Origin: Rhodococcoides corynebacterioides
GTDB lineage: Bacteria; Actinomycetota; Actinomycetes; Mycobacteriales; Mycobacteriaceae
Assembly: GCF_019834675.1 (NCBI RefSeq)
Contig: NZ_JABUBU010000001.1
Span: 744,001 to 808,000, forward strand
DNA length: 64,000 nucleotides
Direction of reading: 5' to 3'
The notes under the pieces are model-generated. The model was not told the DNA's origin, ran no database searches, and saw only the letters and a list, made by a program, of their open reading frames with translations. The position numbers and the translations under genes are program-made. Positions 27,501-36,535 of the stretch are shown piece by piece (positions within the stretch are counted from its first letter, which is position 1; every line of letters starts with the position of its first letter).

Positions 27501-27574
27501 CTGCCTGGATGCACACGACTCGGCCCGATCGACGGATACCCGCCGATCGGGCCGACCTGTGTGCGCTGGGGCAG
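27501..27574 (+). repeat. Palindromic element A, left of the nitrilase cluster
   Basis: A 74-bp imperfect palindrome. The inner arms contain CCCGATC and GATCGGG, the outer ones CTGCC and GGCAG. Its reverse complement aligns along nearly its whole length with the element at 35147-35222, so the two copies lie in opposite orientation on either side of the eight-gene cluster. It may terminate DUF2200 transcription or be a mobile REP/MITE-like repeat. The rest of 27575-27744 holds only the leader of the next gene. Confidence 0.65.
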
Positions 27575-27744
27575 GTCGATCCAAGGAGCGTCGCCGCGTG
27601 TCGTCCGGGTTACGCGAGTGAGCACAACGAAACACAGTGGTGTTCCAGCGATGACCAACCGGACACGCGCCGAGCGTGTACTCGATGTCGAAGGCGCACC
27701 ACAGGTTTCGGTCCCGCGCCTTCCACGACTCCGGGAGGCACGCC

Positions 27745-28269
27745 ATGGCCGCGTTCGATCAGACCATCCTCGACAACATGTCCGCCTCGCTGGCGGAGAT
27801 CCCGCACCCGTCGTTGCCCAAGGGCAGCACCATCTACGGCGGCACCAAGATCTTCCCGGACTACAAGGCGGAGAACGGCGAGTCCTACTTCACCCTGGTG
27901 CACGGTATCGCGCACGAGTCGTCCGTCAGTTTCGTCGCCGTCCTCCAAGCCACCCGCGCGCTGCGGAAGGGCTACGAGTCGGCGATGTACTTCTACGGTC
28001 CCGGTGCGATCAACTGCCTCGCGACGCGCGGGTTCCCCACCACCGGAGATTCCGGCTTCCCCGGCGAGCAGAACATCAACGACGCGCTGGCGACGTTCAT
28101 CTCCGAGGGTGGCACCGTTTTCTGCTGCCGCTTCGGGCTCGCGCTGCACGGTGGCCGCGAGGAGGACCTCATCGAGGGTGTCGTGCCCGCGCATCCGTTG
28201 GACGTGCAGGACGCGCTGATCCACTACGCACGCAAGGGCGCGATCATCAACTCCACGTACATGGTCTGA
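27745..28269 (+). CDS. MSMEG_0572 family (nitrogen-starvation cluster) protein
   Basis: 174 residues from the ATG at 27745, which has GGGAGG upstream. It is recognised as the MSMEG_0572/Sll0783-type family that starts Nit1C clusters; its activity is not established. Visible conserved blocks are IYGGTKIFPDYKAENGESYF, AMYFYGPGAINCLATRGFP and GEQNINDALATFI, with two Cys near GTVFCCRFGLALHG. The glycine-rich, DsrE-like appearance suggests a small alpha/beta fold. First gene of the cluster, 13 bp before the radical SAM gene. Confidence 0.85.
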   Translation: MAAFDQTILDNMSASLAEIPHPSLPKGSTIYGGTKIFPDYKAENGESYFTLVHGIAHESSVSFVAVLQATRALRKGYESAMYFYGPGAINCLATRGFPTTGDSGFPGEQNINDALATFISEGGTVFCCRFGLALHGGREEDLIEGVVPAHPLDVQDALIHYARKGAIINSTYMV

Positions 28270-28282
28270 GGGGGCGAGACCC

Positions 28283-29356
28283 GTGTCCGACGCCACCGTA
28301 CGAACGAGGAACCACCGGGTGGACCTCGCGCTGCTCGGCATCAGGGGCACGCCTCCGGTGCGACGGACGGCCGGGGCGGGCCCGAGCGACGACGGTCATC
28401 TGAGCATCGAGGGACTGGGTGCCGCGTTGCCCCGCAATCCAGCGAGTCCCTATGTGCTGGAGGGGGATCGGGTCCTCTTCGACGGCGACGACATCGGTCT
28501 CGACGTCGCCGCCATCGCGCGGCCGGCGTTCTACGACCTCACCACCGACGAGGGTGTGCCCTACGAGAAGCTCGCCAAGCTGCACGGCATCGGCGTTCTC
28601 GCGAGCACCGTGGTGCAGACCTGCATCCGCTACGACGAGTCGCAGCGCTGCCGCTTCTGCTCGATCGAGGAGTCGCTCCGCTCCGGGGCCACCGTCGCGG
28701 TGAAGAAGCCTGCGGACCTGGCCGCGGTCGCCGAGGCCGCCGTGCGTCTGGACGGCATCACGCAGATGGTCCTCACCACGGGGACGTCGGCCGGGCGCGA
28801 CCGCGGCGCGCTGCACCTGGCCCGGTGCGTACGCGCGGTGCGCGCCGCGGTGCCGGACCTGCCGATCCAGGTGCAGTGCGAACCTCCGGGCGACCTCGCG
28901 ACCATCCAGGAGCTGTACGACGCGGGTGCGCGGTCGATCGGCATTCACGTCGAGTCGCTCGACGACGACGTGCGTCGCCGCTGGATGCCGGGCAAGGCGT
29001 CGGTGTCCCTCGCCGAGTACCGCGCGGCCTGGGTCGAGGCGGTGCGGGTGTTCGGCCGCAACCAAGTGTCGACCTATCTGCTGGTGGGGCTGGGTGAGAA
29101 CCCCGACGAGGTGGTCGCGGGTGCCCGCGAGCTGATCGAGATGGGGGTCTACCCGTTCGTCGTGCCGTTCCGGCCGCATCCCGGCACGCTGGCGGTCGAC
29201 GTGGACGGGGCCGGCGCACCGTCCGCCGAGCTGCTCACCGACGTCAGCGTCCGCGTCGCCGCTGCGCTGACCGAGGCCGGAATGCTCGGTGCCGATCAGC
29301 AAGCGGGGTGCGCCGCCTGCGGCGCGTGCTCGGTCCTGCAGACGATGGGCGGCTGA
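28283..29356 (+). CDS. MSMEG_0568 family radical SAM protein
   Basis: 357 residues, GTG start. The expected [4Fe-4S]/SAM cysteines are Cys114, Cys123 and Cys126 (CIRYDESQRCRFC), spaced CX8CX2C rather than the canonical CX3CX2C. A C-terminal CAACGAC (Cys343, 346, 349) could bind an auxiliary iron-sulfur cluster. TIM-barrel features include LTTGTSAGRDRG and QVQCEPPGDL. Its family is named from M. smegmatis MSMEG_0568; the reaction is unknown. It is placed between the first cluster protein and the GNAT-AIR synthase fusion, with 1 bp after its stop before the next ATG. Confidence 0.9.
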   Translation: MSDATVRTRNHRVDLALLGIRGTPPVRRTAGAGPSDDGHLSIEGLGAALPRNPASPYVLEGDRVLFDGDDIGLDVAAIARPAFYDLTTDEGVPYEKLAKLHGIGVLASTVVQTCIRYDESQRCRFCSIEESLRSGATVAVKKPADLAAVAEAAVRLDGITQMVLTTGTSAGRDRGALHLARCVRAVRAAVPDLPIQVQCEPPGDLATIQELYDAGARSIGIHVESLDDDVRRRWMPGKASVSLAEYRAAWVEAVRVFGRNQVSTYLLVGLGENPDEVVAGARELIEMGVYPFVVPFRPHPGTLAVDVDGAGAPSAELLTDVSVRVAAALTEAGMLGADQQAGCAACGACSVLQTMGG

Positions 29357-29357
29357 G

Positions 29358-30755
29358 ATGACCGTCGACCTGTCCGTTCTCACCGGGCCACCCGCGACGC
29401 CCACCGCACCGTTCCTGGTGCGGCAGGCGGACTCCGTCGCCGACCTGGCCGCGTACCGGTCGCTGCGCCGACAGGCGTTCGTGGTCGAGCAGGGGCTGTT
29501 CGACGGGACCGACCTCGACGAGGTGGACGACGATCCCCGCACGGTGGTCCTGGTGGCCACCGCTCCCGACGGCACGGTCCTCGGCGGCGTGCGTGTCGCA
29601 CCCCGAACGGAACCCGATTCCGGCTGGTGGGCGGGGAGCCGGCTCGTCGTCGCGCGGGGGAGTCGTCGCGGCACCGTGGGTCCGGCCCTCGTGCGAGCCG
29701 CGTGCGCGTTCGTGGAGACGGCGGGCGTGCTGCGGTTCGACGCGGTGGTGCAGGCACGACACGCGGAGATGTTCGCGTCGATCGGCTGGATCACGACGGA
29801 ACGGACCGCGGTGAACGGCACGCCCCACGTGGTGATGCGGTGGCCGATCGGTGCGGTGCAGCGTCTGGTCGACTCGACCAAAGCCGTGCTCGCCGCCGCA
29901 CTCGCGCCGTTCGCCGACGCGCGGATGGGGCTGGGCGGCAGCGGGTTCCGCGGCGACGACGGCGCTCCCGTTCCCGGCTCCGACCTCGTCGCCGCGTGCG
30001 ATGCCATCGTCCCGTCGATGGTCGAACGCGATCCGGAGTGGGCGGGATGGTGCGCCGCCCTGGTGAACGTCAACGACCTGTCGGCGATGGGGGCCGCTCC
30101 GGTCGGCCTGCTCGATGCGGTCGGCGCGCCCACGGCGTCGCACCTCGCCCGCGTCGTGCGCGGTCTGGCCCGGGCGTCGCAGGTCTGGGGCGTTCCGGTG
30201 CTCGGTGGCCACACGCAGGTCGGGGTCCCGGCGGCCCTGTCCGTGACGGCACTCGGACGGACGCCGTCGCCGGTGCCCGCGGGCGGCGGACGGGTGGGTG
30301 ACCACCTGCGTCTCACCGTCGATCTCGGCGGTGGCTGGCGCCCCGGATACACCGGAACGCAATGGGATTCGACCTCGACCCGCTCGTCGGACGAGTTGCG
30401 CGCGATGGGTTCGTTCGTGGCGCGGGCCGCGCCACATGCGGCGAAGGACGTGAGTATGGCGGGCCTCGCCGGCACCGCGGGCATGCTCGCCGAGGCGTCG
30501 GGCACCGGCGTCGAACTCGACGTGACCGCGATACCGCGACCCGACGGCGTCGACACGGGTCGGTGGCTCACCTGCTTCCCCGGCTTCGCCATGATCACGG
30601 CCGACCGCCCGGGACACACCGTCCCGGACGCGGGCCCGGCCACGACCGCCGTCTGCGGACGGCTCACCTCCACTCCGGGCGTCACCTTGCGGTGGCCCGA
30701 CGGAGTGACCACCACTGCGGTCGAGTCCGCAGTCACAGGATTGGGACGAGCATGA
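29358..30755 (+). CDS. MSMEG_0567-type GNAT acetyltransferase fused to AIR synthase-like domain
   Basis: 465 residues. The N-terminal GNAT-like domain (about 18-165) has AYRSLRRQAFVVEQGLF and the acyl-CoA loop area LVVARGSRRGTVGPAL. The C-terminal part (about 185-460) resembles AIR synthase/PurM and selenophosphate synthetase-type ATP-binding proteins: GLGGSGFRGDDGAP, ALVNVNDLSAMGA, VPVLGGHTQVG. In cyanobacteria the two halves are separate (Sll0786, Sll0787); here they are one protein, as in mycobacteria. The ATG at 29358 is 1 bp after the upstream stop. It overlaps the nitrilase gene by 4 bp. Suggests ATP-dependent cyclisation or activation plus acyl transfer. Confidence 0.88.
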   Translation: MTVDLSVLTGPPATPTAPFLVRQADSVADLAAYRSLRRQAFVVEQGLFDGTDLDEVDDDPRTVVLVATAPDGTVLGGVRVAPRTEPDSGWWAGSRLVVARGSRRGTVGPALVRAACAFVETAGVLRFDAVVQARHAEMFASIGWITTERTAVNGTPHVVMRWPIGAVQRLVDSTKAVLAAALAPFADARMGLGGSGFRGDDGAPVPGSDLVAACDAIVPSMVERDPEWAGWCAALVNVNDLSAMGAAPVGLLDAVGAPTASHLARVVRGLARASQVWGVPVLGGHTQVGVPAALSVTALGRTPSPVPAGGGRVGDHLRLTVDLGGGWRPGYTGTQWDSTSTRSSDELRAMGSFVARAAPHAAKDVSMAGLAGTAGMLAEASGTGVELDVTAIPRPDGVDTGRWLTCFPGFAMITADRPGHTVPDAGPATTAVCGRLTSTPGVTLRWPDGVTTTAVESAVTGLGRA

Positions 30756-31654
30756 TCACGATTTCCGTAGCGGCGCAACGGTTCGGTCGCGACATGGAGG
30801 AATCCTTCGCCACCATCGGGCGCCTGATCGACGAGGCGCGCCGCCGAGACACGTCGTTGCTGGTGCTCCCGGAGGCATGTCTCGGGGGCTACCTGCCGAG
30901 TCTCGGCGGCGGCGACGAGTCCGAGGAGACCCGACAGCGCCGACTCCGCAACCTGCCGCCGGCGCTGGACCTCGACGGTCCCGAGATCGCTCGTGTGGCG
31001 GCGATGGCGGGCGGCATGGTGGTGACCTTCGGATTCTGCGAGGCGGACGGAGCGGACCGCTACAACGCGGCCGTGACGGTCCACGGGGACGGCGTGCTGG
31101 GCTCGTACCGCAAGGTGCACCAGCCGCTCGGGGAGAACCTCTGCTACGCAGCAGGTTCCGAGTACCGGGCGTTCGACACCCCGGTCGGTCGGATGGGGAT
31201 GCAGATCTGTTACGACAAGGCTTTCCCGGAGGCCGCGCGTGAGCTCGCGCTCGACGGCGCCGAGATCATCACCTCCCTCTCGGCCTGGCCGACGTCCCGA
31301 ACGGGGCGCGCCGAGAACATGGCCGACGACCGGTGGACTCACCGCTTCGACATCTATGACCGGGCCCGCGCGCTCGAGAACCAGGTGGTGTGGGTGGCGT
31401 CGAACCAGGCCGGATCCTTCGGCTCGCTCGACTTCGTCTGCAGCGCCAAGATCGTCGGACCGGGCGGTGAGGTCCTGGCGGGGACCGGGGTGCGCCCCGG
31501 TCTCGCGACGGCCACCCTCGACGTCCGAGACGCCATCGCGGCGGCACGCGGCGGAGGCATGTACAACCTGCGCGACCGGCGACCGTCGGTGTACGGCACG
31601 TTGGTCGACGACGACAGCATGTCGCGCGTGGATCGGGTGATGAGCCGTGCCTGA
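30752..31654 (+). CDS. Nitrilase-superfamily carbon-nitrogen hydrolase (Nit1 type)
   Basis: 300 residues. The catalytic triad is intact: Glu41 (LPEACLGG), Lys121 (YRKVHQP) and Cys153 (QICYDKAFPE; TGT codon at 31208-31210). It hydrolyses C-N bonds in nitriles or amides through a Cys thioester. This is the defining gene of the Nit1C cluster, which is reported to be needed for cyanide assimilation in a Pseudomonas strain. The true substrate here is not established. It overlaps the upstream gene by 4 bp and the MSMEG_0570-type gene by 8 bp. A degenerate paralogue lies at 33208. Confidence 0.9.
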   Translation: MITISVAAQRFGRDMEESFATIGRLIDEARRRDTSLLVLPEACLGGYLPSLGGGDESEETRQRRLRNLPPALDLDGPEIARVAAMAGGMVVTFGFCEADGADRYNAAVTVHGDGVLGSYRKVHQPLGENLCYAAGSEYRAFDTPVGRMGMQICYDKAFPEAARELALDGAEIITSLSAWPTSRTGRAENMADDRWTHRFDIYDRARALENQVVWVASNQAGSFGSLDFVCSAKIVGPGGEVLAGTGVRPGLATATLDVRDAIAAARGGGMYNLRDRRPSVYGTLVDDDSMSRVDRVMSRA

Positions 31655-31952
31655 GATGACCTTCACCGTGCAATGGCCCGACGGACGTCGACGGCGGTAT
31701 TACTCGCCGTCCCTCGTGATCACCGAGCACCTCACCGTCGGTGCTCGATACGAAGTCGGGGACTTCCTCGACCGCAGCGCGGCCGCATTGACCGAGGCGA
31801 GCGACCGCGTGCAGGCGAAGTACGGGTTCCCGTGCTCCTCGGCGGCCGCGAGCCTGCGCGACATCCGGACCGCCGCCGCTGGGACGTCGGGCTCCGTCGA
31901 GGTTCTCGCGTTCGAGGGTGCTGTGTCCGAGAGTGCAGGGGGTGGGCGATGA
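31647..31952 (+). CDS. MSMEG_0570 family protein
   Basis: 101 residues from GTG 31647, or 98 from ATG 31656. A small cytosolic protein of the nitrogen-starvation cluster family, with MTFTVQWPDG, SPSLVITEHLTVGARYEV and a C-terminal YGFPCSSAAASLRDI. No catalytic motif is recognised. Its conserved place between the nitrilase and the flavoprotein suggests an accessory role. It overlaps both neighbours. Confidence 0.82.
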   Translation: MPEMTFTVQWPDGRRRRYYSPSLVITEHLTVGARYEVGDFLDRSAAALTEASDRVQAKYGFPCSSAAASLRDIRTAAAGTSGSVEVLAFEGAVSESAGGGR

Positions 31953-33199
31953 CCGAGCATCACACCGCCGTCGTGATCGGCGCGGGCCAAGCCGGACTCT
32001 CCATGAGTTGGCACCTGACGCAGCGGGGCGTCGACCACGTGGTCCTCGAGCGGGACACCACCGCGCACGAGTGGATCGACGGCCGCTGGGACAACTTCAC
32101 CCTGGTGACCCCGAACTGGCAGTGCGTCCTGCCCGGATACGCCTACGACGGGGACGATCCCGACGGGTTCATGACACGGGACCTGGTGTACGACTTCGTC
32201 CGTCGCTACGCCGACTCGTTCGACGCGCCGGTGCGCGAGCACGTGGCGGTCCACTCGCTACGGCAGCGACTCGGCGGCGGCTACCACCTCGAGACGTCGG
32301 CCGGGGCGATGACCGCCGATCAGGTGGTGGTGGCCGTCGGCGGCTACCACCTTCCGTCGATTCCCCGCCTGGCGGAACGCATCTCACCGGACGTCACGCA
32401 GATCCACTCGTCGCGGTATCGCAGCGGCGCCGCACTGCCGGACGGCGCCGTGCTGGTCGTCGGGACGGGGCAGTCGGGCGCCCAGATCGCCGAGGATCTG
32501 CATCTCGAGGGGCGGCAGGTCCATCTGGTCGCCGGATCCGCACCGCGCGTGGCACGGTTCTACCGCGGACGTGACTGCGTGGCGTGGTTGCAGGACATGG
32601 GCGTCTACGACGTCTCGATCGCCGACCATGCGGGCGGACTCGCCAAGCGCGAGAGCACCAACCACTACGTGACGGGGCGGGACGGCGGACGTGACATCGA
32701 CCTGCGTGCGTTCGCACTCGAAGGGATGCGCCTTTACGGGCGGCTCACCGACGTCGACGCGGACGGTGTTCTTCGGTTCGCGCCGACCCTCGAGCAGTCG
32801 CTGGATGCGGCGGATGCCGTGGCCGACGGCATCAAGAACGACATCGACGCCTATGTCGCTGCGGCCGGCATCGACGCGCCCACCGAGCCGCGCTACACCC
32901 CGGTGTGGCGACCGGACGTCGAACCGACCGAGCTGGACCTCGCCGCCGCGGGCATCACGTCGGTGGTGTGGGCGGTCGGGTTCCGGCGCGACTATCGGTG
33001 GGTGAAGGTCGGAGTGTTCGACGGCGAGGGGCATCCCGCCCACGTCCGCGGTGTCACCGGTGCCGAGGGTCTCTGCTTCCTGGGTCTGCCGTGGCAGAAC
33101 ACCTGGGGTTCGGGACGTTTCGCGGCCATCGCCCGCGACGCGGAGTACCTCGCCGAACACCTGGCGTCGATCTCCTCCCGCGAGCCGGCCGGAGTCTGA
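31949..33199 (+). CDS. MSMEG_0569 family flavin-dependent oxidoreductase
   Basis: 416-residue FAD protein with the layout of flavin monooxygenases. The FAD motif VIGAGQAGLSMS is at residues 9-20. The second dinucleotide motif VVGTGQSGAQIAED is at about 170. An ATG-type C-terminal FAD motif area is FLGLPWQNTWGSGRF. NAD(P)H and oxygen use are inferred from the fold. The ATG at 31949 overlaps the previous stop. Probably oxidises an intermediate made by the radical SAM and AIR synthase-like enzymes; no biochemical role is known to me. Confidence 0.9.
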   Translation: MTEHHTAVVIGAGQAGLSMSWHLTQRGVDHVVLERDTTAHEWIDGRWDNFTLVTPNWQCVLPGYAYDGDDPDGFMTRDLVYDFVRRYADSFDAPVREHVAVHSLRQRLGGGYHLETSAGAMTADQVVVAVGGYHLPSIPRLAERISPDVTQIHSSRYRSGAALPDGAVLVVGTGQSGAQIAEDLHLEGRQVHLVAGSAPRVARFYRGRDCVAWLQDMGVYDVSIADHAGGLAKRESTNHYVTGRDGGRDIDLRAFALEGMRLYGRLTDVDADGVLRFAPTLEQSLDAADAVADGIKNDIDAYVAAAGIDAPTEPRYTPVWRPDVEPTELDLAAAGITSVVWAVGFRRDYRWVKVGVFDGEGHPAHVRGVTGAEGLCFLGLPWQNTWGSGRFAAIARDAEYLAEHLASISSREPAGV

Positions 33200-33207
33200 G
33201 GCGCACC

Positions 33208-34077
33208 GTGGTCACGACGCGCGTCGGGGCGCTCGCCGGGCACTTCGGACGGGACGTCGACCGATGTGTCGACAAGGTCGTGGGGATCATCGAGGACGGT
33301 CACCGCCGCGGGGTCGATCTGATCGTGTTCCCCGACGCGTGCCTCGGCGGTTATCTCGGCGACCTGACCGACCCCGACGTGGACGACCTGCCCCCGGCGC
33401 TGGACCCCCGCGGCCCCGAACTGACGCGGATCGTCGGGGCCGCCGGCGGCATGACCGTCTGCCTCGGCTACACGGAGTGTGCCGTCGGCGAGCGCTACAA
33501 CGCGGCGGTCTGTCTCACCGGTGACGGGATCCTCGGCTCGCACCGCAAGGTGCATCGGCCCGCCGGGGAGCATCTGGCCTATGCGGCGGGGGAGTCGTTC
33601 TCCGCCTTCGACACTCCCGTCGGGCGCATGGGGCTGCTCATCGACTACGACAAGACGTTCCCGGAGGCCGCCCGCACCCTTGCCCTCGACGGTGCCCGCG
33701 TGATCGCGGCACTGTCCGCGTGGCCCGCCAGCGTCACCGACCGGGCGTCGAAGTTGGCGAACGACAGGCAGTCTCGCCTGTTCGACCTCTACGACGGAGC
33801 GCGGGCGGCGGAGAATCAAGTGGTGCTGCTGTCGTCCAACCACACCGGCGTCATGGGCTCGCTGCGGTTCCTGGGGCAGGCGAAGGTGGTCGGCCCCGGC
33901 GGCGAGGTGCTGTGCCGCACACGGGACAAGGGGGGTTTGGCGTGGTGCGACCTCGACATCGACGCGGAGGTCGAGCGGGCCCGCCGCACCTTGCACCATC
34001 TGTGCGAACGGCGTCCGGAAACTTATCGCTCCCACCACCGTGTCGACCAGGGGGACCCGTGCGCGTCGCACTCCTGA
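33208..34077 (+). CDS. Nitrilase paralogue lacking catalytic Cys and Glu (probable pseudoenzyme)
   Basis: 289 residues from GTG 33208, clearly homologous to the nitrilase encoded at 30752 (shared blocks RYNAAV, GSxRKVHxP, FDTPVGRMG, YDKxFPEAAR). The active-site Glu is Asp43 (FPDACLGG; GAC at 33334-33336). The nucleophilic Cys is Asp146 (LLIDYDKTFPE; GAC at 33643-33645). Only Lys114 is kept. The frame is intact and the rest of the fold conserved, so this is not simple decay. It may form a regulatory or structural partner of the active paralogue. Its 3' end overlaps the glycosyltransferase gene by 19 bp. Confidence 0.88.
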   Translation: MVTTRVGALAGHFGRDVDRCVDKVVGIIEDGHRRGVDLIVFPDACLGGYLGDLTDPDVDDLPPALDPRGPELTRIVGAAGGMTVCLGYTECAVGERYNAAVCLTGDGILGSHRKVHRPAGEHLAYAAGESFSAFDTPVGRMGLLIDYDKTFPEAARTLALDGARVIAALSAWPASVTDRASKLANDRQSRLFDLYDGARAAENQVVLLSSNHTGVMGSLRFLGQAKVVGPGGEVLCRTRDKGGLAWCDLDIDAEVERARRTLHHLCERRPETYRSHHRVDQGDPCASHS

Positions 34078-35120
34078 CCTACTCCACCAAACCGCGCGGC
34101 GGCGTCGTGCATACCGTCGAACTGGCGGAGGCACTGGCCGCCGCCGGAGCCGACGTCACGCTGTGGTCGCTCGCACGTGGGGGCGACGAGGGCTTCTACC
34201 GTCCGATCGATCCCGCCGTCACAGTCCGGCTGGTGCCGTTCCCGCACCGTGAGGCCGAGTCGGTCGGTGACCGGATCCTGCGCTCGATCGCGTTGCTCGG
34301 CAGCGCGTTCGAGGCCGACTCGGCGGACATCGTCCACGCCCAGGACTGCATCTCGGCCAATGCTGTCGGGCGTTGCATCCGCACGATTCATCACCTCGAG
34401 ACCTTCACCACGCCCGCCCTGGCCGCCTGTCACGAGAAGGCCATCGTGCAGCCCTACGCGCATCTCTGCGTGTCGCGGTCCGTCGCGGACGAGGTGGCCG
34501 CGGGCTGGGGCCTCGACCCGACCGTCATCCCGAACGGTGTCGACGCGGCGCGATTCGCGACGGCGGACGGCGACGGGTGGCGGGCTCGCTTGGGTCGGTA
34601 CGTCCTCGCGGTGGGCGGGATCGAACCGCGGAAGGGCAGCCTCGACCTGCTCGAGGCGTATGCGGTGCTGCGCGAGCGGCGTCCCGACGTGCGGTTGGTC
34701 TTCGCCGGGGGTGAGACCTTGTTCGATTACCGCGACTACCGCGCGCGGTTCGACGCGCGACTCGCCGAGCTGGGCGGGACGCCGCCGGTGGTCCTGGGCA
34801 CCGTCGACCACGACGTGCTCCCGTCCGTCGTGGCCGGCGCCGCGGCGTTCGCGTTCCTCTCGACCAAGGAGGGGTTCGGGTTGGCCGCGATGGAGGCGCT
34901 GGCGGCGTCGGTCCCCGTGGTGGTCCGCGACCTGCCGGTTTTCCGGGAGGTGTTCGGGCACGCCGTGCGTTACGGGGGATCCACCGAGGCGACAGCCGAC
35001 GCCCTGGAGTCGGCGATGGACTCGGATTCACTGGCGGCCGCGGGGCGTGCGCTCGCGGGGTCGCTCACCTGGGCCGACGCCGCCGCCCGGCACCTCGAGT
35101 TCTACGAGCGCGTGGGGTGA
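34059..35120 (+). CDS. MSMEG_0565 family glycosyltransferase (GT4)
   Basis: 353-residue GT-B fold transferase. The N-terminal acceptor domain starts RVALLTYSTKPRGGVVHTVEL. The C-terminal nucleotide-sugar domain has AVGGIEPRKGSLDLL and the catalytic EX7E-type segment STKEGFGLAAMEALAASVP. The GTG at 34059 lies inside the paralogous nitrilase gene. A sugar transferase at the end of the cluster suggests that the final product is glycosylated. Last gene of the cluster, followed by palindromic element B. Confidence 0.88.
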   Translation: MRVALLTYSTKPRGGVVHTVELAEALAAAGADVTLWSLARGGDEGFYRPIDPAVTVRLVPFPHREAESVGDRILRSIALLGSAFEADSADIVHAQDCISANAVGRCIRTIHHLETFTTPALAACHEKAIVQPYAHLCVSRSVADEVAAGWGLDPTVIPNGVDAARFATADGDGWRARLGRYVLAVGGIEPRKGSLDLLEAYAVLRERRPDVRLVFAGGETLFDYRDYRARFDARLAELGGTPPVVLGTVDHDVLPSVVAGAAAFAFLSTKEGFGLAAMEALAASVPVVVRDLPVFREVFGHAVRYGGSTEATADALESAMDSDSLAAAGRALAGSLTWADAAARHLEFYERVG

Positions 35121-35146: not shown

Positions 35147-35222
35147 CATGCCCTGGTGCACACAGGTCGCACCCGATCGGCGGGATCCCGTCGATCGGGG
35201 CGACTCGTGTGCACTGAGGCAG
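35147..35222 (-). repeat. Palindromic element B, right of the nitrilase cluster
   Basis: A 76-bp imperfect palindrome with arms around TGCACAC...GTGTGCA and CCGATCGGCGGG...CCCGTCGATCGG. It matches the reverse complement of element A at 27501-27574 at most positions. It sits between the convergent stops of the glycosyltransferase (+) and the Rv3311-like gene (-), so terminator function is plausible. Sequence kinship with A is beyond what independent terminators would need. Confidence 0.65.
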
Positions 35223-35227
35223 GTCGG

Positions 35228-36535
35228 TCAGGTGGTGACGCGCAGCCGCGTCTCGAACTCCCGCTCGAGGTCGCGCCAGGACTCGGCCTCGGCGTCGAAC
35301 GGCGGGCTCGGCGCCATCCGGCCGGGCGTCGGCTCGAGAATCCCCGACACCAGCCAACCCAGCGGGGTGGAGGGTGCGAGCGCCTCCTCGACCGACGAGT
35401 CACCGGCGAAATCCGCTGCGTCGGTGAACAATTCGACGGCGAGGTCGAGCTGGTCGACGTCCACGGCCTCGGGTCCGCGGGCGAGATCGTCGGCGATCCC
35501 GGGCAGGACGTAGACGTTCTCGTCGGTCACCACCACGTCGAGGGAGCCGTCGACGGCGGCGGTCCGCACGTCGTCGTACGTCTCGAGGGAGGCGAGGTCG
35601 TGCTCGTGGTCGTCGGCGAGGTAGCGCGCGAGAGCCCGCTCACTGGTGAAGACGAGAACGGCGCCGGACCGTCCGAGGAACACCGGCTCGTCGTCGAGGT
35701 AGCACCGCAGGGTGTAGTACGTGTTCTCGCCGGTGATGATCCGGATCGGATCGATCCCGACGGACGCCCAGAAGTCGTCCTCGTCGTCCTCGTCGTCCTC
35801 GTCGGTGTCGTCGTCCTCGGTCCCGGCCGCGGCGACTCCACCCACGGCGGGCACCGCTGCGGCGTCGGTGCGGGGCTCGACGTCGAGGTCGGGGTCGTCG
35901 ATCTCGTCCGGGTCCTCCGCATCCACCACGTTCTCGGCGGCGGCCGTGATCTCGGCGTCCGCATCGGCCACCGCGGCGTCGTCGACCTGCGGGGTGACCA
36001 ACACCGTGTCGATCGCGTCGAGCACGTCGTCCCACCCGTCGGCCAGCGCGGTTCCGATGCGGTTCCACAGCTGCTTGCCCTCGCGCCCGACGAAGGCGTC
36101 GGCGCCCCGGCCCAGCACCGCGAACAGATGGTTGGCCGAGAAGTACCGCGTGACCGTGTCGAGTTCGCAGACCTCGCCGAGCGTGCGCGCCATGCCGAGG
36201 GAGCGGGCGAGCTCGACGACGACGTCCTCGGTGGGCTCCTCCGCCGCGAGTTCCGGTACTCCGATGAGGTCGTATACGTGATCGTCGTCGGGCTCGATGT
36301 GTTCGGCGGACAGGGCCCGCACGGTGCGCCACTGCGGATGATCGACCAGATCGTTGTCGTCGTCGGCACGGACGAACGCCGCGAGGTGGGCGACCGACGG
36401 GAAGGCGAACAACGCGTCGTCGCGGCCGAGGAAGGCCTCCCACTCCTCGCCGTCCTCGCGCCATTCCGGCGCCCACAGGGTGACCAGGTCGCCGGCGGTG
36501 ACTCCGAGCTCGATCGGGACGATGTCCTGTGCCAT
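35228..36535 (-). CDS. Conserved actinobacterial protein, Rv3311-like
   Basis: 435 residues, no signal or membrane segment. Two similar halves (about 1-165 and 255-420), each with an ITAGDLVTLW/ITGENTYYTL-like start and a VFTSERALARYL/FAFPSVAHLAAFV segment, suggest an internal duplication. They are joined by a strongly acidic linker (about 185-250) ending in a run of Asp/Glu. Position and strand match Rv3311 in the mycobacterial order deoA-add-Rv3311-upp, from memory. Function unknown. ATG 36535 starts the frame. Confidence 0.75.
   Translation of the reverse strand: MAQDIVPIELGVTAGDLVTLWAPEWREDGEEWEAFLGRDDALFAFPSVAHLAAFVRADDDNDLVDHPQWRTVRALSAEHIEPDDDHVYDLIGVPELAAEEPTEDVVVELARSLGMARTLGEVCELDTVTRYFSANHLFAVLGRGADAFVGREGKQLWNRIGTALADGWDDVLDAIDTVLVTPQVDDAAVADADAEITAAAENVVDAEDPDEIDDPDLDVEPRTDAAAVPAVGGVAAAGTEDDDTDEDDEDDEDDFWASVGIDPIRIITGENTYYTLRCYLDDEPVFLGRSGAVLVFTSERALARYLADDHEHDLASLETYDDVRTAAVDGSLDVVVTDENVYVLPGIADDLARGPEAVDVDQLDLAVELFTDAADFAGDSSVEEALAPSTPLGWLVSGILEPTPGRMAPSPPFDAEAESWRDLEREFETRLRVTT

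Follow-up and report, generated by a model that had tools for sequence, protein, structure and literature searches.

The window analysed here, a stretch of 64,000 nucleotides from Rhodococcoides corynebacterioides (assembly GCF_019834675.1, contig NZ_JABUBU010000001.1), contains one tightly packed operon of eight genes of the Nit1C/gpr type (window positions 27745-35120, + strand). In order, the genes encode an MSMEG_0572-family protein, a radical SAM protein, a fused GNAT/AIR-synthase-like protein, a first nitrilase paralogue (N1), an MSMEG_0570-family protein, a flavoprotein, a second nitrilase paralogue (N2) and a glycosyltransferase. N2 (33208..34077, + strand), the subject of this analysis, was identified by a PF00795 match and by alignments as a nitrilase-fold protein of 289 amino acids (aa) that carries D43, K114, E121 and D146 where Glu-Lys-Glu-Cys is expected. 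D43 (codon GAC, 33334..33336, +) occupies the position of the catalytic Glu and D146 (GAC, 33643..33645, +) that of the nucleophilic Cys; the catalytic Lys is retained as K114 (AAG, 33547..33549, +) and the second Glu as E121 (GAG, 33568..33570, +). N1 (30752..31654, +, 300 aa) has E41, K121, E128 and C153, as determined by alignment and profiles.

The open reading frame of N2 is intact, from a GTG start to a TGA stop, and the protein is identical to N1 in 145 of 283 aligned columns (51%). By profile, N2 falls within the nitrilase superfamily (PF00795, 95.8 bits against a cut-off of 23.2), and its predicted structure is a confident nitrilase (alpha-beta-beta-alpha) fold in which a helix is predicted to begin at D146. 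The Glu-Lys-Cys triad of the active hydrolases of the superfamily is replaced by D43/K114/D146, and the second Glu that follows the Lys in active hydrolases is present as E121. Neither paralogue belongs to the Nit6803 family (TIGR04048, cut-off 502.6), for which N2 scored 31.5 bits and N1 41.9 bits. An earlier note on this DNA had read the sites as E41/K121/C153 in N1 and D43/K114/D146 in N2. Re-reading the sequence confirmed both the residues and the numbering, and the full 289-aa frame and the N1 triad bear out its description of an intact paralogue beside an intact nitrilase. Its count of two base changes from TGC to GAC was mistaken, as the Cys codon of N1 is TGT, which differs from GAC at three bases. 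This base count means little because neither N1 nor N2 is the ancestor of the other.

To place these residues among orthologues, N2 copies were taken from whole-genome searches, which yielded 43 copies (41 from the order and two from other parts of the phylum) with 57-100% identity to the window protein (median 64%). D146 and K114 were present in 43 of 43 copies, and D43 and E121 in 41 of 43 each. The four positions read DKED in 39 copies, and GKED, HKED, DKVD and DKDD in one copy each. The earlier note had proposed such an alignment as its check, with a local mutation indicated if most orthologues retained the Cys; all 43 copies have D146, and the Asp is thus conserved. Assignment to the N1 or N2 class relied on identity and best match, independently of the active-site residues. 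Matches covering fewer than 220 residues and near-identical copies were removed before distinct sequences were counted (121, 107 and 16). The 121 distinct N2 sequences over all loci comprised 117 with DKED together with the same four exception patterns, and all 107 distinct N1 sequences read EKEC. An N1 split across two contigs (L052/L196), which reads.EEC at the contig edge, was excluded for length, and a second N2 copy in genome G072 lies outside the counts from the 41 N2 genomes.

The same pattern was seen more widely. DKED was present in all 200 proteins among the matches listed from two protein searches (120 listed each, overlapping), and named Mycolicibacterium species have D/K/E/D in their N2. 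Among the best 80 of 447 relatives in a species-wide scan, which may omit the records most similar to the window, the closest named record was Rhodococcoides kroppenstedtii, with an N2 98% identical to that of the window; the same 80 include a bin titled Acidobacteriaceae (L047). In 72,556 plasmid records, N2 was found at 60-80% identity on four Rhodococcus plasmids, the other 29 matches lying below 60%, and the radical SAM protein matched 513 of these records. No N2 outside the Actinomycetota was confirmed in the plasmid scan or among the best 80 of 447 relatives, to which the search of other phyla was confined.

To examine the origin of N2, a tree was built from 65 of 244 rows, thinned to below 80% identity within N1, N2 and other sequences, with the four catalytic columns excluded. 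N2 formed a single clade (support 98/97). Stand-alone hydrolases with Glu-Lys-Glu-Cys made up the sister clade (100/99), the node uniting the two having a support of 95/87. For one of these hydrolases, the 120 relatives among the matches listed comprised 118 with EKEC and two in which the Glu column was absent, and no form half-way between EKEC and DKED was found in these 120. Eight of them were named with an organism, six being Solirubrobacteraceae. Because N2 is monophyletic, its sister clade bears the Cys and no half-way form was seen, these alignments suggest most simply that the change of Glu and Cys to Asp arose once on the N2 stem and was then retained for a long time. Around three stand-alone Cys-bearing copies (L151, L152 and L156), a scan of ten chosen neighbour proteins revealed no neighbour family common to all three; short-chain dehydrogenases are located near L152 and L156.

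The omega of N2 was not higher than that of N1, indicating that purifying selection on N2 is no weaker. Together with D146 and K114 in 43 of 43 copies, this upholds the proposal that selection maintains the changed site. Seven positions were near-fixed in both paralogues but with different residues (N2/N1): D43/E41, D146/C153, Q188/W195, L191/R198, L222/V229, L262/M270 and E267/D275. At five of them (D43, D146, L191, L262 and E267), the N2 residue is distinct from that of the sister clade as well. A further 23 positions were fixed in N2 and variable in N1, some of which (such as R179, Q224 and K241) are likewise unlike the sister clade. In contrast to these altered positions, N1 and N2 have the same residue at 62 positions, with a conservation of 97% or more in each family, including Y49, W172, P173, R187, N203 and N211. 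This combination of a kept frame and an altered centre suggests that N2 may handle the same or a related ligand with changed chemistry.

The neighbouring genes of the operon were assigned by family profiles, each scoring above its curated cut-off. The MSMEG_0572/Sll0783 family protein (27745..28269, +) scored 252.5 against 109.85 for TIGR04044, its start being inferred at an ATG within an open reading frame listed from 27676. It is followed by the MSMEG_0568-family radical SAM protein (28283..29356, +; TIGR04043, 496.3 against 303.7) and the fused GNAT acetyltransferase/AIR-synthase-like protein of the MSMEG_0567 family (29358..30755, +; TIGR04045, 84.7 against 68.45, and TIGR04050, 508.5 against 312.2), whose start is taken to be the ATG at 29358, which follows the stop codon of the radical SAM gene, in a frame listed from 29289. 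Between N1 and N2 lie the MSMEG_0570 family protein (31656..31952, +; TIGR04042, 111.5 against 79.85) and the flavin-dependent oxidoreductase of the MSMEG_0569 family (31949..33199, +; TIGR04046, 646.6 against 498.35). The MSMEG_0565-family glycosyltransferase (34059..35120, +; TIGR04047, 435 bits against 259.85) ends the operon. N1 overlaps the preceding frame by 4 bases, the MSMEG_0570 and flavoprotein frames overlap by 4, and those of N2 and the glycosyltransferase by 19. The gene set of a Nit1C cluster is thus present (TIGR04044, 04043, 04045, 04050, 04042 and 04046), with the cyanobacterial-type AIR-synthase model TIGR04049 below its cut-off (182.5 against 321.3). The Nit6803-type (subfamily 1) nitrilase of Nit1C is lacking and N1 is of another type, which makes this a variant of the cluster. 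All eight gene types of the gpr operon (MSMEG_0565-0572) are also present, in an order that differs from that in Mycolicibacterium. A GlnR-box pattern matched the window 46 times against 37 expected, and 8 of 100 shuffles gave as many matches; there was no clear excess, and the pattern was not used.

Long hairpins flank the operon on both sides (27505-27595 and 35148-35232; RNA fold z-scores of -5.0 and -7.4). Both are copies of one dispersed palindromic repeat with 25 matches in its own genome at E values up to 1e-3, some counted on both strands, and the repeat is possibly terminator-like or mobile. On the linear Rhodococcus qingshengii plasmid pLP1, typed as mobilizable (L200), all eight genes of the cluster are enclosed by IS3-family transposase genes, and the cluster may move as a unit.

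N2 lies on the same strand as, and directly upstream of, the MSMEG_0565-family glycosyltransferase in all 91 full clusters, defined as those with the seven longer gene types. The glycosyltransferase match began -18 to 128 bases after the N2 stop (median 2). On the other side, the recognised gene to the left of N2 was the flavoprotein in 47 clusters, the AIR-synthase-like gene in 35, N1 in eight and none in one. In 249 genomes of the order, 48 had some match and 41 had N2; a glycosyltransferase of at least 411 bits was confined to 40 of these N2 genomes. In one N1 cluster (L234, genome G365), N2 and the glycosyltransferase are both absent within 19 kb. These distributions suggest that N1-type clusters gained N2 and this glycosyltransferase together, and that the two are not a universal pair. 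A general rule that the glycosyltransferase needs N2 was considered and is ruled out by the Tistrella plasmid cluster described below (L199) and by other clusters that have one without the other. A second, divergent type of actinomycetotal cluster (L201, L202, L203, L206, L209, L227 and L230-L233) has the radical SAM protein, GNAT in nearly all cases, the AIR-synthase-like and MSMEG_0572 genes in several, and a distant MSMEG_0565-like glycosyltransferase. Neither N1 nor N2 was recognised in these stretches, and a Nit6803 query, used on part of them, also found none.

The earlier note had suggested that N2 forms a heteromer with the active paralogue. Identities to the window proteins were compared between 24 clusters of the Gordonia/Mycolicibacterium type and 35 of the Rhodococcus type. 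The median identities of N1 (56 vs 78%) and of the flavoprotein (59 vs 73%) differed between the two types, whereas those of N2 (71.5 vs 72.6%), the radical SAM protein (74 vs 76%) and the glycosyltransferase (66 vs 67%) were similar. N1 and the flavoprotein of the Gordonia/Mycolicibacterium-type clusters are therefore a separate, diverged subtype, and N2 is not. Partial correlations of pairwise distances over 90 clusters gave 0.81 for N1 and the flavoprotein (rank 0.55) but 0.02 for N2 and N1 (rank 0.10, rank bootstrap -0.01 to 0.24). For N2, the values were 0.69 with the MSMEG_0572 protein (rank 0.67) and 0.33 with the radical SAM protein. Strong co-evolution of N2 with the MSMEG_0572 protein was rejected, as the coupling is weak within cluster types; it serves as a lead only. 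At three loci (L040, L043 and L091), the N2 operon lacks N1 and the flavoprotein, and both sit elsewhere in the genome as a pair. Since the N2 of L043 (titled Kitasatospora) and that of L091 (Williamsia muralis) agree in 267 of 269 residues, these represent two independent cases. Collectively, the N1/flavoprotein subtypes, the N2-N1 correlation near zero and the location of N1 in a separate operon do not favour N2 as a dedicated partner of one N1, nor the heteromer as proposed. Some Williamsia and Rhodococcoides genomes (L189-L195) have a small separate operon of N1 and the flavoprotein, several with an MSMEG_0572 gene in front. Genomes G632 to G635 carry both N1 subtypes, the separate N1/flavoprotein operon being present in addition to the N1 of a main cluster that has no flavoprotein.

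The nitrilase superfamily works through its Cys, and for this reason N2 is expected to have lost the usual covalent C-N hydrolysis. Glu, Lys and Cys are named as the catalytic residues in passages of PMC8689077 and PMC1199592. The reading that we prefer, with about even confidence, is that N2 is a conserved, Cys-free nitrilase relative belonging to one actinobacterial version of the Nit1C/gpr operon, and that its repurposed site would bind an intermediate of this nitrogen-starvation pathway or act on it without a thiol. The second suggestion of the earlier note, that N2 may bind an intermediate, would fit this reading. N2 would then probably no longer hydrolyse C-N bonds. Its predicted pocket, with three carboxylates and one Lys, could bind the intermediate or act on it by acid-base chemistry. 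The 62 shared positions, including Y49, W172, P173, R187 and N211, suggest that the ligand may resemble the substrate or product of N1, and the extra negative charge would suit a ligand that is polar, perhaps cationic (an amine, ammonium or amidine), or metal-bound. N2 would probably work in an arm of the pathway with the glycosyltransferase, the MSMEG_0572 protein and the radical SAM protein, and not as a subunit of N1.

Several observations weigh against this reading. D43 and E121 are not absolute, with G43 at L129, H43 at L138, V121 at L139 and D121 at L117/L150. The best 80 of 447 relatives are a biased sample, as one of the two seed peptides of that scan includes D146; the 43 whole-genome copies were found without such a seed and are independent of that bias. 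The partial correlation of N2 with the glycosyltransferase was 0.11 over the 90 clusters, and within single cluster types the couplings of N2 were weaker and scattered, at 0.31, 0.13 and 0.37 for the MSMEG_0572 protein and 0.45, 0.27 and 0.00 for the glycosyltransferase. In G188, N2 sits next to an MSMEG_0572 gene where the contig ends, and the only glycosyltransferase of the genome is a distant one located elsewhere. Weaker relatives of the glycosyltransferase occur in seven genomes of the order without N2, and in the cluster on the Tistrella plasmid (L199) the glycosyltransferase is accompanied by a nitrilase of the Nit6803 type, no N2 being recognised there. The two N1 subtype groups are weakly sister on the tree (86/72), so divergence in place, instead of exchange, may account for them. 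Finally, an N1-like match was present in all 41 genomes with N2, which a heteromer would predict likewise.

This last observation also speaks for the possible but doubtful alternative that N2 is a catalytically dead subunit that regulates, shapes or stabilises N1 in a heteromer. Conserved residues of region 186-204, which we take to lie near the dimer interface of solved relatives, are shared between the two paralogues at 51% overall identity, and plant nitrilases provide a precedent in sorghum NIT4A/NIT4B2, described as a heteromer in the part of PMC5154151 consulted. The divergence of N1 and the flavoprotein without N2, the N2-N1 correlation and the two cases of a separately located N1 argue against it, as does the existence of N1-type clusters without N2 (G365, L154/L234, and G344, L153), where the only other strong match in the genome is a Cys-bearing stand-alone copy. 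A mere scaffold would also not obviously require an invariant K114 and D146.

A different possibility, which we consider quite unlikely, is that N2 is an active enzyme of new chemistry, with D146 as nucleophile or general base. It draws on an analogy, since Ser-to-Asp swaps made alpha/beta-hydrolases into dehalogenases and epoxide hydrolases. It would accord with K114 and D146 in every N2 examined, with the presence of D43 and D146 in the set of five positions where the residue fixed in N2 differs from those of N1 and of the sister clade, and with the intact predicted fold and its helix starting at D146. However, no precedent was found among the titles and abstract starts listed by literature searches on Asp-bearing nitrilases, and conservation alone does not separate catalysis from binding. 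The bolder proposal that N2 founds a class of nitrilase-fold enzymes with an Asp nucleophile or base (Asp-Lys-Glu-Asp), catalysing a non-hydrolytic or non-thiol reaction next to a glycosylation step in the actinobacterial Nit1C/gpr pathway, is also rather unlikely. Loss of a catalytic Cys is a usual mark of decay, yet decay or neutrality of the N2 copy, like an artefact of sequencing or reading, is extremely improbable and is already contradicted by the conservation data. Chance and sequencing error are excluded because the Asp pair is near-fixed (D43) or fixed (D146) across the whole clade, and local mutation, decay and a neutral copy are ruled out by this conservation and by an omega not above that of N1; the open reading frame is intact and the predicted fold confident. 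Decay proper looks different. In four genomes of one genus, a third nitrilase-like family outside the cluster (L140, 5469-6419; L141, 5977-6804; L142, 6383-7222; L143, 6244-7533) has degraded active sites with the Lys-Glu segment partly deleted (EQ-C, EQ-C, D--G and GN-S, respectively). L140, the sole member in the tree, groups among N1, and the family is a useful control for what decay looks like, unlike the pattern of N2.

The chemistry of the Nit1C/gpr pathway is unsolved in the parts of the literature covered here. The titles, abstract starts and passages listed by literature searches on nitrilases, Nit1C and gpr contained no prior report of a Cys-to-Asp change in a nitrilase. N2, kept in the operon yet Cys-free, would mark a step that is unlikely to be the usual amide or nitrile hydrolysis, and a catalytic role of the Asp site, if real, would widen a superfamily whose defining feature is the Cys. 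Plant NIT4A/NIT4B resemble the present pair in being paralogous nitrilase-superfamily proteins that act together (passages of PMC5154151), but they form a heteromeric complex, which the genomic signal here does not favour. The Nit6803/NitC nitrilase of classical Nit1C clusters shares its fold family and operon type with N2 (passages of PMC1199592 and PMC11049912) and differs in the TIGR04048 scores given above; the single nitrilase of the two proteobacterial clusters examined (L198 and L199) is of this Nit6803 type. N1 of the same operon is like N2 in fold family, length, identity and the positions conserved in both, but has Glu-Lys-Glu-Cys instead of Asp-Lys-Glu-Asp and W195/R198 instead of Q188/L191.

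The gpr operon of M. smegmatis (MSMEG_0565-0572) has the same gene content as the window operon, and its deletion lowers peroxide resistance and the NADPH/NADP ratio, according to passages of PMC6039565. The same passages propose selenocysteine read-through of MSMEG_0571; N1 of the window is an ordinary 300-aa hydrolase ending at TGA, and the proposal deserves a check. In Mycolicibacterium clusters (L062, L072, L089 and L090), N2 is flanked by the glycosyltransferase of the MSMEG_0565 family and the protein of the MSMEG_0567 family, the place that MSMEG_0566 has in M. smegmatis, and by gene order alone N2 is assigned as the orthologue of MSMEG_0566. Tables of two transcriptome papers give MSMEG_0566 as an 'aliphatic amidase' that is upregulated in cells limited or starved for nitrogen (8.94 in PMC4222082; 2.96 in PMC4617892), and PMC6039565 lists it as an amidase with a possible part in assimilating nitrogen. 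This printed role contrasts with an orthologue that has no catalytic Cys. Because that residue is missing, N2 is likely not the amidase of the printed annotation, and its residues put in question the annotation carried in the transcriptome papers.
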